Assembly: GCA_020847395.1 (NCBI GenBank)
Contig: JADLCD010000075.1
Coordinates: 1-43,882 of the forward strand
Length of the DNA: 43,882 bases
Direction: 5' to 3'
Source: Chitinophagaceae bacterium
GTDB lineage: Bacteria; Bacteroidota; Bacteroidia; Chitinophagales; Chitinophagaceae
Each line of letters starts with the position of its first letter. The first letter of the stretch is position 1. Shown one piece after another: positions 1 through 4,346 of this stretch. Below the pieces are notes generated by a model, which made no database searches, had not been told where the DNA came from, and worked only from the letters and a program-made list of their open reading frames with translations. A program made the translations under genes and the position numbers.

Positions 1-3000
1 AAATACCAACCTTCTCTAAATTCCTTTTGTGAATATTTTTTTATCTTTTCCAAATCCAACTCAATACCATCAACGTATTCCACCGGAACTCTTATCGGAT
101 TTAACTGTAAGTAATAGGCGTAATATTTTAATTCCTCTTCTGGGATATCAAAATAGCCTTTTTCTTGCAGGTAAATTGATTTTAGAATTTCTTCAGGCCC
201 AAATTGTTCTATAGTTTCTCGATAACCTTTAGAAATAAAAATGGGAGGTATTTTACGATCGGACTTATGAATAATTTCTGGGCCTCCCGGTTCCACGGGA
301 CGAGGAGTAAAACGATACACATGTATTAACCTGCTACTCCCCTGTATCATCCCCTGGTTCACCAGTCTCTTAAACGGCTCATTGAAACCAATATACCCCA
401 GGTCATACAATACTTTCGTCCACATGCGGCTGTATAACAAATGTCCTACGGCATGTTCTGTCCCGCCGATATATAAATCTACCTGGTTCCAGTAGTCAGA
501 TACTTTTCTGTCGCAGAAGGCCTTGTCGTTATGCGGATCCATATAGCGAAGAAAATACCAACTGCTGCCGGCATAACCGGGCATGGTGTTGGTTTCCCTC
601 ACCCCCTGCCCCCTCTCCACTTGTGGAGAGGGGGTGAGCGCTTCCAACTCCAGCTTTATTTTATCTCTTACCGAGAAAACATTATCTAAAATCTCCTGGT
701 TAGTGTAGCGTATTACTTTAAAACCAATGCCGGTTAATACTTTTGTCCTTTCTTCATCATATTTCTTTTGCTCATCATTTTCGTGGTAACCACCATCAAC
801 CTCTACAATCAATTTATCCTGCAGCGATACAAAATCAACAATATAAGATTCTATAGGATGTTGTCTGCGGAATTTAGTGCCGGTTTTACTTCCTCTAATT
901 AGTTCCCACAGCTTCCCCTCGGCTTCAGTATGTCCTTTGCGCATATCTTTAGCTAATTCATATTGCATAGGGGTATGCACTTTATATTTTGGAACGTTGG
1001 CTTCACCAACGGCTCCCTTCTCTCCCGCAGGGCGGGGTGGAGAAGGGTCGGGGATGAGGGTCCATTCCGGTATATTCGCCAACGGACCCTCACCTTCCGG
1101 TCCCGGCTTATAAGAATCCACATGCGGCAGTTCCAATGGTAATTCGCTTTCCTTCAACGGATATGCTATGCCGTCTTTCCATATAATAGGAAACGGCTCT
1201 CCCCAGTAACGCTGGCGGCTAAACGCAGCATCACGCATTTTATAATTCACCTTTCGTTCTCCGTCGCCATTATCTTCCAGCCATTCAATTATTTTTTCAG
1301 CAGCTTCCTTTACTTTTAAATCTGTTATGAAACCACTGTTATGCAGCGTAACATTTTTATCTGCAATCGCATCCTCGCCTGTGTATAAATCACCGAATAT
1401 ATTGGTAACAGGTATATTGAAGAATTTCGCGAATTTATGATCGCGTTCATCGCCGCTGGGCACAGCCATTATAGCGCCGGTTCCATAGCCAGCCAATACA
1501 TATTCGCTTATCCAGATGGGCACTTCTCCTCCACTCAGCGGGTTAATAGCATAAGCGCCGGTAAAGCAACCCGATATTTTCTTCTCGGCCATACGTTCCC
1601 GTTCGCTGCGACTTTTTACATAGGTTATATATTCATCAACCGCATCTTTCTGTTCCGCTGTGGTAATTTGCTCTACCAGTTCGTGCTCGGGTGCAAGCAC
1701 CATAAAGTCAACACCAAAGATGGTATCCGGGCGGGTGGTGTAGACCCTCACCCCCGCCTCTCCCTGCAAGGGAGAGGGGCTGCCAACTGCAGATCTTTGT
1801 TGAGCGCCAGTACGTTTTATTTCATCGCAGGTATCTTTAATCGTCTTAACCACTTTTTCGACATTACTGGTTACCTGGTCGTTAGTAAACCGGAGAGTGG
1901 TAAAGCCAATTTGCTTTAAAAAGGTATCCCGATTTCTATCAAGTTTTTGCTGTTCTTCATTGTCGTGATAGCCTCCGTCAATTTCTACAATTAACCATGT
2001 ATCCAGACAAACAAAATCAGCAATACTATTTTCAATGGGGTGCTGCCTTCTGAATTTATAACCCGTAGATTTTGCTTTCAGATTATGCCACAAAAGCTTT
2101 TCGGCCTCAGTGGGTTCTTTGCGCATGCGCTTAGCGTTCTCAAAACTCATCTCACTGTCTACCTTATATTTCGCATATCCAAAACCCGGAATCGCTTTCT
2201 TCTCCATAATCTTCGCTCCGTTCTCCTCCATTTCCTCTCCCCCGCGGGGAGAGATAGAGAGGGGGAATTTAATCTCCGCACCACTACTCTTCCCTATCCA
2301 GTTTGTTTGCATCTCTTTCATAGCCTCGCTCCACTCCAGTTCATTAAGGTCGCCCTGCAGGCGATCGGCATATTCCGTAATGCGCAGGTACCATTGACGC
2401 AATTTCTTTTTTATAACAGGATATCCGCCGCGTTCGCTCACACCGTTTATCACTTCATCATTTGCCAATACCGTTCCCAGCGCTTCGCACCAATTCACTT
2501 CGCCGTAACCACAGTAGGCAAGGCGGTATTCCATTAAAATAGATTGTTGCGTAAATTCATCAAAAGACAGCCAATCGGCAGCAGTAAATATTTGAGATTT
2601 GAGACCTTGCCTGCCGGCAGGCAGGTTTGAAATTTGAAATTTTTGATCAGGAACAGGATGATTAATATTTCCTTCTGTTTCAAATATCTCAATCAATCCT
2701 TCTATACTTTCCGCTTTATTTGTTTTGCGGTTATACCAGCTTTTAAACAATTGCAGGAATATCCATTGTGTCCATTTGTAATATGAGGCATCGCTGGTAC
2801 GTATCTCGCGGCTCCAGTCGTAACAAAACCCAATATTATCTAACTGCTTCCTGAAGGTGTTGATATTTTTTTCCGTTGATACGGCAGGATGAATGCCGTG
2901 ATCAATGGCGTATTGTTCCGCAGGCAAGCCGAATGCATCATAGCCCATAGGGTGTAATACATTAAAACCTTTCAATCTTTTATACCGCGCAAAAATATCG

Positions 3001-3173
3001 CTGGCTATATATCCTAATGGATGCCCCACATGCAGGCCTGCCCCACTCGGGTAAGGAAACATATCCAGCACATAATATTTAGGCCTGGGAGAATTGTTTT
3101 CAACTTTATACGCTTCTGTATCTTTCCATTCTTTTTGCCAATGCTTTTCTATCTCCCTGAAATTGTATTCCAT
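1..3173 (-). CDS. leuS: Leucyl-tRNA synthetase, C-terminus outside window, with two in-frame DUF559 insertions
   Basis: Charges tRNA-Leu with leucine in the cytoplasm and proofreads through the CP1 editing domain. I translated the minus strand from the ATG at 3173 to the window edge: about 1057 residues with no stop seen. Class I motif HVGH is at residues 48-51. NWCEALGTVLANDEV and NWIGKSSGAEIKF precede the editing domain, which keeps TTRPDTIFG and the GTGAIMAVP...DERD segment. RQRYWGEPFPI, RETNTMPGYAGSSWYFLRY and YIGGTEHAVGHLLYSR follow. KMSKS and the anticodon-binding part lie beyond the left edge. Residues about 304-476 and 705-858 are foreign DUF559 domains, and residues 184-190 (LPAGRQG) come from a palindromic repeat. 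All lengths are multiples of three and the LeuRS sequence resumes correctly after each. Bacterial LeuRS is usually about 800-950 residues, so this one is unusually large. It is divergent from ftsX with a 300-bp gap. Confidence 0.96.
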   Translation of the reverse strand, partial: MEYNFREIEKHWQKEWKDTEAYKVENNSPRPKYYVLDMFPYPSGAGLHVGHPLGYIASDIFARYKRLKGFNVLHPMGYDAFGLPAEQYAIDHGIHPAVSTEKNINTFRKQLDNIGFCYDWSREIRTSDASYYKWTQWIFLQLFKSWYNRKTNKAESIEGLIEIFETEGNINHPVPDQKFQISNLPAGRQGLKSQIFTAADWLSFDEFTQQSILMEYRLAYCGYGEVNWCEALGTVLANDEVINGVSERGGYPVIKKKLRQWYLRITEYADRLQGDLNELEWSEAMKEMQTNWIGKSSGAEIKFPLSISPRGGEEMEENGAKIMEKKAIPGFGYAKYKVDSEMSFENAKRMRKEPTEAEKLLWHNLKAKSTGYKFRRQHPIENSIADFVCLDTWLIVEIDGGYHDNEEQQKLDRNRDTFLKQIGFTTLRFTNDQVTSNVEKVVKTIKDTCDEIKRTGAQQRSAVGSPSPLQGEAGVRVYTTRPDTIFGVDFMVLAPEHELVEQITTAEQKDAVDEYITYVKSRSERERMAEKKISGCFTGAYAINPLSGGEVPIWISEYVLAGYGTGAIMAVPSGDERDHKFAKFFNIPVTNIFGDLYTGEDAIADKNVTLHNSGFITDLKVKEAAEKIIEWLEDNGDGERKVNYKMRDAAFSRQRYWGEPFPIIWKDGIAYPLKESELPLELPHVDSYKPGPEGEGPLANIPEWTLIPDPSPPRPAGEKGAVGEANVPKYKVHTPMQYELAKDMRKGHTEAEGKLWELIRGSKTGTKFRRQHPIESYIVDFVSLQDKLIVEVDGGYHENDEQKKYDEERTKVLTGIGFKVIRYTNQEILDNVFSVRDKIKLELEALTPSPQVERGQGVRETNTMPGYAGSSWYFLRYMDPHNDKAFCDRKVSDYWNQVDLYIGGTEHAVGHLLYSRMWTKVLYDLGYIGFNEPFKRLVNQGMIQGSSRLIHVYRFTPRPVEPGGPEIIHKSDRKIPPIFISKGYRETIEQFGPEEILKSIYLQEKGYFDIPEEELKYYAYYLQLNPIRVPVEYVDGIELDLEKIKKYSQKEFREGWY
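609..634. repeat. Perfect 12-bp-arm hairpin at the 3' end of cassette B
   Basis: CCCCCTCTCCAC and GTGGAGAGGGGG are separated by two bases. The hairpin is nested in CTCACCCCC...GGGGGTGAG and matches the style of the other three cassette ends. It is read in the leuS frame as PSPQVERG. Confidence 0.85.
1015..1061. repeat. Palindromic 5' end of cassette B
   Basis: Contains CCCTTCTC (1015-1022) and GAGAAGGG (1040-1047) around an inner CCGC/GCGG pair. Together with the opposite end (CCCTCACCCCCTGCCCCC on the plus strand) it forms an imperfect terminal inverted repeat of the cassette. Confidence 0.75.
1746..1780. repeat. Palindromic 3' end of cassette A
   Basis: CTCTCCC (1758-1764), loop TGCAA, GGGAGAG (1770-1776), preceded by CCCTCACCCCCGC. 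This is the same design as the end of cassette B and encodes the SPSPLQGEAG linker. Confidence 0.78.
1746..2264 (-). mobile_element. In-frame DUF559 (Vsr-like endonuclease) cassette A inside leuS
   Basis: This 519-bp (173-codon) block separates GAEIKF from VYTTRPDTIFG, where E. coli LeuRS, as I recall it, has a loop of about 11 residues. The domain reads NAKRMRKEPTEAEKLLW, then GYKFRRQHPI, then IADFVCLDTWLIVEIDGGYH, which is the DUF559 pattern with its D, E-x-D-G-G and H residues intact. The edges are palindromic: CTCTCCCC/GGGGAGAG at 2235-2242/2246-2253, and CTCTCCC/GGGAGAG at 1758-1764/1770-1776. They are translated as linkers (PLSISPRGGEE and GSPSPLQGEAGVR). An internal ATG at 2231 could start a separate product, but no stop codon ends the cassette. 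Element boundaries are good to a few codons. The mobile-element label is inferred from the repeat ends and from the second copy. Confidence 0.88.
2235..2267. repeat. Palindromic 5' end of cassette A
   Basis: CTCTCCCC (2235-2242), CGC, GGGGAGAG (2246-2253), followed by ATAGAGAGGGGG towards the LeuRS-coding side. Translated in the leuS frame as FPLSISPRGGEE. Confidence 0.75.
2589..2645. repeat. In-frame LPAGRQG-encoding palindrome within leuS
   Basis: A perfect 16-bp palindrome, TGCCTGCCGGCAGGCA (2608-2623), is embedded in ATTTGAGATTTGAG / TTTGAAATTTGAAATTT junk of a kind usually seen between genes. It is read in the leuS frame as about 18 extra residues (FQIS-NLPAGRQG-LKSQI) between the PVPD and FTAADW segments. 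Exact insertion limits cannot be set without an uninterrupted relative. Similar ATTTGAAAA junk lies after pheS. Confidence 0.8.
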
Positions 3174-3473
3174 ATTGTTAAATGTATCTAATTGTCTGAA
3201 GAAAATATCTCAACGAAAAATATTCAAACTGAACTGTCGTTAAGAGGGCAGCAAATTTACGGAAAGCACCCATAAAACCGTTATTTTTGCCATCTGCCGT
3301 CCGTACCGAAAACATATTGTTAGCTGGAAGAAACACAGACTTTAAATTGATGCTATGTCAAACGGGAAAAGTGAGAGGTGAGCGTTTGTTTTACTCCTCA
3401 CGGAAATATACAGGCATAGATTGATTGATTTAACAATAGTTACCGGTTTTTCAGAAACTAAATTTTTGTTTCA
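3174..3473. promoter_or_regulatory. Divergent leuS/ftsX intergenic region
   Basis: A 300-bp gap without a convincing gene that must hold both divergent promoters. TATTTTTG at 3282-3289 fits the Bacteroidota -7 box TAnnTTTG for the plus strand, but no matching upstream TTG box was found at the usual distance. No terminator or operator palindrome was recognised. Confidence 0.35.
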
Positions 3474-4346
3474 ATGGTTGAAATCAGCAAAGGTTCCATG
3501 AGAAGAAGCAAGCCTTCTTATTTTTTCAGCGTACTGGGCGTAGCATCCTTATTGATATTGGTGGGTATATTAGGTTGGTTTGTAATAAACGGCAGCAAGC
3601 TGGAAAAATACTTTCGCGGCAGCGTGCAGGTGCAGGTATACCTGCGCGAAAACGCGCCTCAAAAGGATATTGACTCCCTGATGGGCTATATACAAGCAAA
3701 GCCATACGCTGATTCGGCACAGCATATTACCAAAGACATTGCTAAGGAGCGTTTTTTGAAAGATGGCAATGAAGACTGGGATAAGGTGCTGAATTATAAC
3801 CCGCTTCCGGCAAGTATTGATTTCAATCTTAAATCAGATTATGTAAATAAGGATTCGCTCAATCCCATAGTAGCAGATCTTACCCAAAATATAATAGTAA
3901 GTGAGGTAAAATACCCCGACGCTGTGGTAGGAAACCTGAATACTGTGGTGCGGAAAGTAGGGATCGTATTGCTCGTGGCAGCGGCTATTCTTGGTATAAT
4001 TGTGTTGATTTTGATTGATAATACGATAAAGCTTGCCATGTTCAGCAACCGGTTTTTAATTAAAACGATGCAGATGGTTGGCGCCACCCGATGGTTTATA
4101 TCGAAGCCGTTTGATATGAAAGCGGTAATGAATGGACTTATAAGTGCTATTATAGCTATTGCGGTTTTGGTTGTATTTATAATAGGGGTGGAAAAATGGT
4201 TGCCGGAAATAAAGGCACTCCGCGACTATACATTGCTGGGACTGTTGTTTGTAGCTATCGTTGTAATAGGTATTGTCATCACCTTCATCAGTACACACCG
4301 CAGTGTTACCAAATACCTCAAGATGAAGCTGGATGACCTCTATTAA
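3474..4346 (+). CDS. ftsX: Cell division protein FtsX (permease-like ABC component)
   Basis: FtsX pairs with the ATPase FtsE at the division site and signals to periplasmic peptidoglycan hydrolases. The 290-residue product has a basic N-terminus (SMRRSKPSYFFS), one membrane segment at about residues 19-41, a large extracytoplasmic domain, and three further membrane segments at about 163-184, 215-237 and 253-274. The cytoplasmic loop contains KTMQMVGATRWFISKPF, the conserved MxLVGAxxxFIxxPF-type FtsX signature. An alternative start is Met9. ftsE is not adjacent, which is common in Bacteroidota. pheS follows after 26 bp on the same strand. Confidence 0.92.
   Translation: MVEISKGSMRRSKPSYFFSVLGVASLLILVGILGWFVINGSKLEKYFRGSVQVQVYLRENAPQKDIDSLMGYIQAKPYADSAQHITKDIAKERFLKDGNEDWDKVLNYNPLPASIDFNLKSDYVNKDSLNPIVADLTQNIIVSEVKYPDAVVGNLNTVVRKVGIVLLVAAAILGIIVLILIDNTIKLAMFSNRFLIKTMQMVGATRWFISKPFDMKAVMNGLISAIIAIAVLVVFIIGVEKWLPEIKALRDYTLLGLLFVAIVVIGIVITFISTHRSVTKYLKMKLDDLY

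Follow-up and report, generated by a model that had tools for sequence, protein, structure and literature searches.

In-frame selfish DNA has a described precedent in the Rickettsia palindromic elements (RPEs; Ogata et al. 2000), which a passage of PMC10969869 presents as sequences of ~150 bp lying in frame in protein genes. We describe here two nuclease-encoding cassettes that lie in frame in leuS, the gene for leucyl-tRNA synthetase (LeuRS), of a Chitinophagaceae bacterium; the window, that is, the whole stretch of 43,882 nucleotides analysed, is an entire contig (G000:C76; G, C and L denote genomes, contigs and loci) of a 5.17-Mb genome in 190 contigs with a completeness of 99.99%. The cassettes may be compared to a nuclease-carrying RPE, a likeness of description rather than of sequence comparison with RPE families: both appear to be palindromic selfish DNA that is found in frame in unrelated metabolic genes and is translated. 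To our knowledge RPEs encode no nuclease, whereas the cassettes encode a nuclease domain that is kept by purifying selection and bordered by palindromes, and they occur in Bacteroidota. We consider it likely, from comparative sequence analysis, that they represent a selfish mobile nuclease element that inserts in frame in length-tolerant loops and is tolerated there, unspliced, as a translated internal domain.

Several other systems share part of this organization. Vsr-like homing endonucleases occur in introns; one of them, I-Bth0305I (PDB 3r3p, named 'Mobile intron protein' in that database, EDxHD/Vsr-like), presumably resides in a self-splicing intron and is similar to the cassettes in nuclease fold and profile and in its same-site, lineage-crossing occurrence in conserved genes, but we found neither intron nor intein here, and the nuclease remains part of the host frame. 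The transposases associated with repetitive extragenic palindromic (REP) sequences, known as RAYTs (REP-associated tyrosine transposases), belong to the HUH type of tyrosine nucleases, and REPs lie mostly outside genes; palindromic repeats bracket a nuclease gene in both cases, although in ours the nuclease is of the Vsr type and its location mainly intragenic. A LAGLIDADG homing endonuclease (HE) sequence fused in frame to the fungal mitochondrial rps3 gene, mentioned in a statement of PMC7902536 citing Gibb and Hausner (2005), is likewise joined to a host protein gene, but it involves another nuclease family, fungal mitochondria and one host, whereas the cassettes are internal, reside in many bacterial genes and have palindromic ends. 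Caulobacter VsrA, introduced in a section of PMC12907096 as a stand-alone, predicted mismatch-repair endonuclease, and the Neisseria protein of known structure 3hrl belong to the same Pfam family as the cassette domains (PF04480, DUF559), with the difference that VsrA is a stand-alone gene. In the open-access literature searched we found no nuclease-carrying element in frame in many essential bacterial genes, and none of the titles of the DUF559 papers retrieved concerned inserts in host genes.

Splicing, through inteins or introns, has been thought necessary for mobile elements to live in essential genes, and the cassettes would be a second solution, in which essential enzymes permanently carry a nuclease domain and leftover solo palindromic ends become lasting linkers. 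They could show how insertions in conserved enzymes arise, and they would provide natural domain-insertion proteins that can be tested directly. Annotation may mask such an element under the name of the host enzyme.

Two nuclease cassettes within leuS

The features of the leuS locus are as follows (window positions, all on the minus strand).

3..3173, minus strand: frame of leuS, the leucyl-tRNA synthetase gene, with 1057 aa inside the window, running off the contig start
1746..2264 (approximate), minus strand: cassette A, ~519 nt, inserted where the editing domain begins, with GAEIKF before it and VYTTRPDTIFG after it; ends placed by reading
2235..2253, minus strand: left-hand (5') terminal palindrome of cassette A, read as the peptide ..PLSISPRGGEE..
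1827..2141, minus strand: DUF559 / Vsr-type nuclease domain of cassette A
1757..1777, minus strand: right-hand (3') terminal palindrome of cassette A, read as the peptide SPSPLQGEAGVRV; the outer end, GGGGGTGAGG, lies at ~1755-1746
597..1060 (approximate), minus strand: cassette B, ~464 nt, between GPLANIPEW and ETNTMPGYAG; ends placed by reading
1015..1060, minus strand: left-hand (5') terminus of cassette B, in which CCCTCATCCCCGACCCTTCTCC.. precedes an imperfect hairpin; read from the sequence
645..959, minus strand: DUF559 / Vsr-type nuclease domain of cassette B
609..634, minus strand: right-hand (3') terminal palindrome of cassette B, perfect with arms of 12, read as the peptide LTPSPQVERGQGVRE
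2608..2623, minus strand: separate 16-bp palindrome TGCCTGCCGGCAGGCA in leuS, translated LPAGRQG, in frame and nuclease-free

From 3173 to base 3 the 1057 codons of leuS contain zero stops, and Pfam places the class I catalytic part and the editing domain of LeuRS around two DUF559 stretches (218 bits against a cut-off of 20.6; E-value 1.9e-65 over the whole LeuRS protein of the window). LeuRS sequence picks up in frame at VYTTRPDTIFG after cassette A and at RETNTMPGYAG after cassette B. The continuous frame, its two cassettes and both exits had been claimed in the initial annotation, made from the letters alone, and were recovered as described; its prediction of intact active sites also holds, both domains of the window aligning with the other inserts at the invariant E23, D51, E62, D64 and H68. 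The missing 3' part of the gene, including KMSKS, lies on another contig (G000:C149:27315-28025), and the LeuRS editing domain occurs once in the genome, so that there is a single leuS divided by a contig break; a second leuS, which could have made this one dispensable, was looked for in the genome and none was found. The divided gene is presumably the working copy.

Comparison with the leuS DNA of a congener (L078) shows the same interruptions: the alignment extends to ~2272, resumes at ~1756 and breaks again from ~1072 to ~600, cassette B being missing from L078. In relatives, the site of cassette A (site A) is flanked by GAEIxF and xVYTTRPDTIFG. In structure 1h3n, which we take to be the LeuRS of Thermus, site A corresponds approximately to the short stretch before TTRPDT, and the site of cassette B (site B) to the CPKCGG segment (alignment with the uninterrupted LeuRS of L121). 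The earlier proposal that these sites are surface loops is indirectly supported by their variable length in alignments, but the full-length AlphaFold model of LeuRS is poor (mean predicted local distance difference test score, pLDDT, of 59; predicted template modelling score of 0.32) and allows local statements only; averaged in blocks of ten residues, the nuclease parts mostly reach 68-88 and the linkers stay below 50.

Inserts are patchy in LeuRS. A LeuRS match was found in 142 of 147 same-family genomes and an insert in at least 21 of these 142 (22 leuS loci). Of 48 uninterrupted LeuRS sequences, 44 have a GA-to-TTRPDT segment of 18-25 residues at site A, and site B is a short loop of 13 residues in 36 of the 46 measured, two of the 48 having no site-B measure and L298 having no leuS frame in this loop comparison. 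These empty sites, which the initial annotation had suggested looking for, indicate that the insert is not ancestral in the LeuRS of the family. The in-frame architecture recurs in many independent genomes, including single-contig ones (aroC and icmF in G141, an M23 peptidase gene in G004) and the isolate record of Ilyomonas limi, so the integrity of the frame is not peculiar to this draft assembly. In two uninterrupted LeuRS (L264 and L285) the site-A stretch is long (61 and 50 residues) but lacks clear palindromic ends, and may be an eroded remnant. The 72% complete genome G012 has two partial leuS contigs (L067 and L083) with site-A inserts of different lineages and is probably a mixed bin.

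A conserved nuclease in many host genes

The third DUF559 domain of the genome lies in frame in the activation domain of metH (G000:C101:11282-11605, L001), where a congener (G123, L049) has a cassette of the same lineage. More generally, DUF559 was found in 76 of the 147 same-family genomes sampled. From the matches listed, we fetched 100 regions (60 with frames of ~200 aa or more and 40 shorter, best by E-value) and added 20 further regions as a check, including five stop-broken ones. The first 100 regions, together with the genome's own copies, supplied 107 DUF559 domains that were read, and 53 of them are internal in an open host frame, a count that is not a blind sample, since 60 regions were picked for long frames, and that includes host frames cut by contig ends. 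These inserts occupy LeuRS site A (18), LeuRS site B (7), the activation domain (7) and N-terminal part (2) of MetH, the fused methylmalonyl-CoA mutase encoded by icmF (5), CinA (4), chorismate synthase, encoded by aroC (4), MetRS (2; L043 and L057, which are not LeuRS), adenine deaminase (2), an M23 peptidase (1) and the Lhr helicase (1). Host names and site labels were assigned by eye from translations, except for nine proteins scanned with Pfam (that of the window and eight others); in all eight, host domains were found around the insert, and in chorismate synthase, MetH and MetRS they are split into two stretches. DUF559 domains with the same kind of ends thus do occur in frame in other host genes, as the initial annotation had envisaged.

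In a tree of the 107 domains, the 53 internal inserts form one fork with zero stand-alone rows (95 in the Shimodaira-Hasegawa-like approximate likelihood ratio test, SH-aLRT). Outside this embedded fork are N-terminal fusions (to ArgB, HisA, homoserine kinase and a nucleotidyltransferase) and inserts in HsdR, IspG and a type IIG enzyme. Three of the 20 check regions had their best match inside the embedded clade, all weak (33-44% identity) and in other proteins. Six stop-broken DUF559 matches were seen in the family among the matches listed; one (L146) falls outside the embedded clade and the other five all have their best match outside it. Some distant DUF559-like matches (L316, L317, L321, L322 and L323; 33-36% identity, frames of 658-1305 aa) read like helicases or other large proteins and look like ordinary domains, not cassettes.

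The host range widens beyond the family. A scan of named genomes with a profile of 50 aligned inserts yielded 80 relatives kept among at least 576, selected by the motifs of that alignment, which they carry by design; 57 of the 80 are situated in frames no shorter than 190 aa (among the matches listed). Among the same matches, hosts recognized by eye include LeuRS of Bacteroidales, of Flavobacteriaceae and of one member of Balneolales, RecG (8), IleRS (4), ValRS (3), MetH and others, and across the study they amount to more than 20 different genes. In a phylum-wide sample, matches were present in 126 of 296 genomes, some among the matches listed lying in frames of 800-1400 aa. For the wider tree, we excluded L181, which repeats the same-family locus L040, and one frame shorter than 100 aa. 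By eye, the valS inserts L219, L223 and L251 immediately precede TTRPET, a position equivalent to LeuRS site A. A DNA target shared by leuS site A and valS, both beside TTRP(D/E)T, was considered but is not claimed, as recG, ileS and site B have no common flank by eye.

The alignment comprises 50 of the 53 inserts (leaving out L055 in lhr, L092 in cinA, which has lost E62, and L046, a near-copy of L048), including both domains of the window. Despite identities to the first row of 36-74%, E23, W27, R41, Q42, D51, E62, D64, H68, D77, R80 and N96 are invariant. In 11 of 12 insert pairs compared with our own script, the proportion of synonymous differences was 0.50-0.84 versus 0.09-0.25 for non-synonymous ones, the twelfth pair being near-identical; the ratio of non-synonymous to synonymous substitution rates (dN/dS, omega) was 0.09-0.25 in six of the 12 pairs, dS being saturated in the other six. 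Because the catalytic residues are nearly invariant and dN/dS is this low, the inserts look translated and the nuclease under purifying selection.

The DUF559 domain was modelled by AlphaFold2 with a pLDDT of 92.5. Its best match among solved structures is 3hrl, the DUF559-like Neisseria protein (Foldseek E-value 2e-7, profile E-value 3e-32), and it also matches 3r3p, I-Bth0305I, in structure (Foldseek E-values 1e-4 and 3e-4, template modelling scores of 0.63 and 0.62 by query) and in profile (hmmsearch E-value 8e-6). The Vsr of E. coli comes only eighth among the structure matches (E-value 0.05), behind mitoribosome proteins and AbaSI/PvuRts1I. The predicted fold of DUF559 is that of the homing endonuclease I-Bth0305I.

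Conflict between host and insert trees

The LeuRS host tree (from which L083 was excluded) places the window and L078 as sisters (99/97) with L035 next, all in one genus (100/100). By contrast, the insert tree pairs the site-A nuclease of L035 with that of L078 as sisters (100/100) and places that of the window with inserts of four other genera (100/99). Approximately unbiased (AU) tests, for which the sets of congeners were picked after seeing the data, reject a single clade of the site-A inserts of the window, L035 and L078 (p 8e-6) and reveal similar conflicts in further congeneric pairs (L072/L077, p 7e-8; L065/L068, p 8e-6). They also reject a single origin of all 18 site-A inserts (p 1.4e-7) and of the seven site-B inserts (p 5e-4). 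The leuS DNA of L065 and L068 is 83-86% identical on both flanks, and the cassettes between these flanks belong to different lineages. Congeners can therefore be seen to have different cassettes at one and the same site.

Palindromic cassette ends

CTCTCC..GGAGAG palindromes occur at three of the four ends of the leuS cassettes (0 in 100 shuffles). Besides these and a palindrome of 16 bp at 2608-2623, the 43.9-kb window contains no perfect hairpin (arms of at least 8, arm G+C of at least 60%, loop of at most 10). The initial claim that the ends are palindromes of one type stands for the three CTCTCC..GGAGAG ends; it does not extend to the left end of cassette B, an imperfect hairpin, and the ends are less uniform in other hosts. 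In the genome, CTCTCC-N2-8-GGAGAG was found at 22 places versus 0 for the reversed control; four of the 22 are in the three cassettes, and nine of the 12 other sites read lie in no frame longer than 150 aa. The best-kept outer end reads 5'-CCTCACCCC..CCCCTCTCC-N-GGAGAGGGG and is inverted at the opposite end. Of the 53 inserts, 34 have a GC-rich hairpin scoring above 20 dinucleotide shuffles on the left and 30 on the right, 21 have one on both sides and 43 on at least one; the 25 leuS inserts had one at the left in 20, at the right in 20 and at both in 16. A count of candidate terminal inverted repeats gave 35 of 56 above 30 mononucleotide shuffles.

Among the 24 cassettes with a recognizable right end, its TGA is read in phase 2 in 15, in phase 1 in nine and never as a stop; left ends are also read in two phases (12 and six of 18). 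Since the same end is read as different peptides in two frames in different hosts, the ends appear to be preserved as DNA, not as protein linkers.

Decayed cassettes and a recent copy

Several loci seem to retain cassettes in decay. The cinA insert of L092 (G040) has lost E62 and other residues and the cinA frame is still open, which fits selection acting on the host frame irrespective of the nuclease. Apparent solo ends without nuclease were read at site B in L065, L068, L072, L122 and L297, and at site A of L290 both ends are present and the nuclease is absent. At the opposite extreme, one genome (G064) has a 484-bp DUF559 unit at two places (L141 and L147), 97.7% identical with unrelated flanks and, in one case, just upstream of an apparent homoserine kinase gene; this pair represents a recent copy event. 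We infer the mobility of the cassettes from the trees and this one pair.

Mode of spread and alternative explanations

In the mechanism that we propose, each cassette would be a copy of an element of ~0.45-0.55 kb consisting of a Vsr/EDxHD-type DUF559 domain devoid of start and stop codons of its own and bounded, in the best-kept copies, by GC-rich palindromes. The element would persist in essential genes because it occupies, in frame, loops that tolerate changes in length and is translated there into one more internal domain, held by flexible linkers, and the host enzyme would work with the domain attached, with no splicing. The nuclease would cut a cassette-less allele or a palindrome, and repair of the break would copy the cassette in, resulting in a homing-like spread with rarer jumps to new genes. 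We are inclined, if by a modest degree, to regard these cassettes as a large overlooked class of autonomous Bacteroidota elements, palindrome-ended and of the Vsr type, that home into fixed loops of housekeeping enzymes, replace each other there and decay from them, always unspliced. Such an element may merit a class of its own.

Several observations weigh against this interpretation. The ends are not uniform: in ten of the 53 inserts neither end has a significant hairpin, and none of the icmF and metG inserts has one at each end. The left and right ends match as inverted repeats in 34 of 53 inserts (20 dinucleotide shuffles) and as direct repeats, the control, in 23 of 53, the control also scoring because near-palindromes match both ways. 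That the right-end TGA never falls in the stop phase is a consequence of picking open frames. By eye, we recognized no target-site duplication at the best-preserved junction (L068), nor any target sequence for the cassettes. The recent copy pair L141/L147 is of the stand-alone DUF559 type, outside the embedded clade, and the idea of an exclusively gene-embedded nuclease clade, which held in the family sample (53/53), had to be dropped after wider sampling: the fork containing the embedded inserts (support 82) comprises 124 of the 184 rows of the wider tree, and 16 of these 124 are stand-alone. A common origin of the four aroC inserts was not rejected by the AU test (p 0.065), the icmF and recG clusters of same-host inserts fit one insertion followed by vertical descent, and loop tolerance by itself could account for the reuse of a site.

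The most serious alternative is transposition in the manner of REPs or miniature inverted-repeat transposable elements (MITEs), in which the nuclease acts on the palindromic ends and jumps widely, and only copies in frame in loops survive in essential genes. Palindromic ends in many copies, the CTCTCC-N2-8-GGAGAG sites, mostly outside long frames where read and without counterpart in the reversed control, the diversity of host genes recognized by eye and the recent copy pair at unrelated places all speak for it. We nevertheless hold it to be a possibility of distinctly lower probability than homing-like spread, because one loop is used by different cassette lineages even within a genus, which is more like allelic homing or end-to-end recombination; moreover, target duplication was not seen at the junction inspected.

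An undescribed protein splicing or self-excision at the linkers, yielding a normal LeuRS, would explain why the inserts are in frame on both sides, as inteins are, and near conserved motifs. We find it improbable: Pfam detected no Hint domain in the window protein and the eight others, for which reason an intein was rejected, in agreement with the lack of intein splice motifs noted initially; the linkers are ends translated in two frames, so that the junction residues are not conserved by eye; and solo-end linkers persist in other LeuRS.

It is very hard to maintain that the domain is an ancestral or host-recruited part of LeuRS, for instance a regulatory or defence nuclease, inherited vertically. 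Purifying selection on the nuclease and the use of the same loops in other families and in one Balneolales genome would fit, but the domain is patchy in LeuRS within the family and is also present in unrelated enzymes, and the conflict between host and insert trees, supported by the AU tests, contradicts vertical inheritance. We give equally little credit to removal at the RNA level, as an intron, or to translational bypassing over hairpins, an idea prompted by the strong hairpins found on the two sides of many copies. Neither mechanism needs an open host frame, yet the 53 family inserts maintain one, and changes in the domain are mainly synonymous in the host frame. A group I or group II intron was rejected in particular, as cmscan with Rfam over positions 1-3500 found no catalytic RNA core and returned only one snoRNA match far below the gathering score. 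Finally, an assembly artefact or a pseudogene, which the position of leuS at the edge of one contig of a 190-contig draft might bring to mind, deserves practically no credence, this being the only leuS found in a 99.99% complete genome and the same architecture recurring in many independent genomes, single-contig ones and the I. limi isolate among them.

Homing-like spread is accordingly ranked ahead of REP-like transposition on the present comparisons, the reuse of the same site by different cassettes being the reason for this preference.

An additional palindrome in leuS

The nuclease-free palindrome TGCCTGCCGGCAGGCA differs from those of the cassettes. Its 12-bp core was found at 11 places in the genome versus 0 for the reversed control, and in leuS the peptide that it encodes, LPAGRQG, is situated in a loop.

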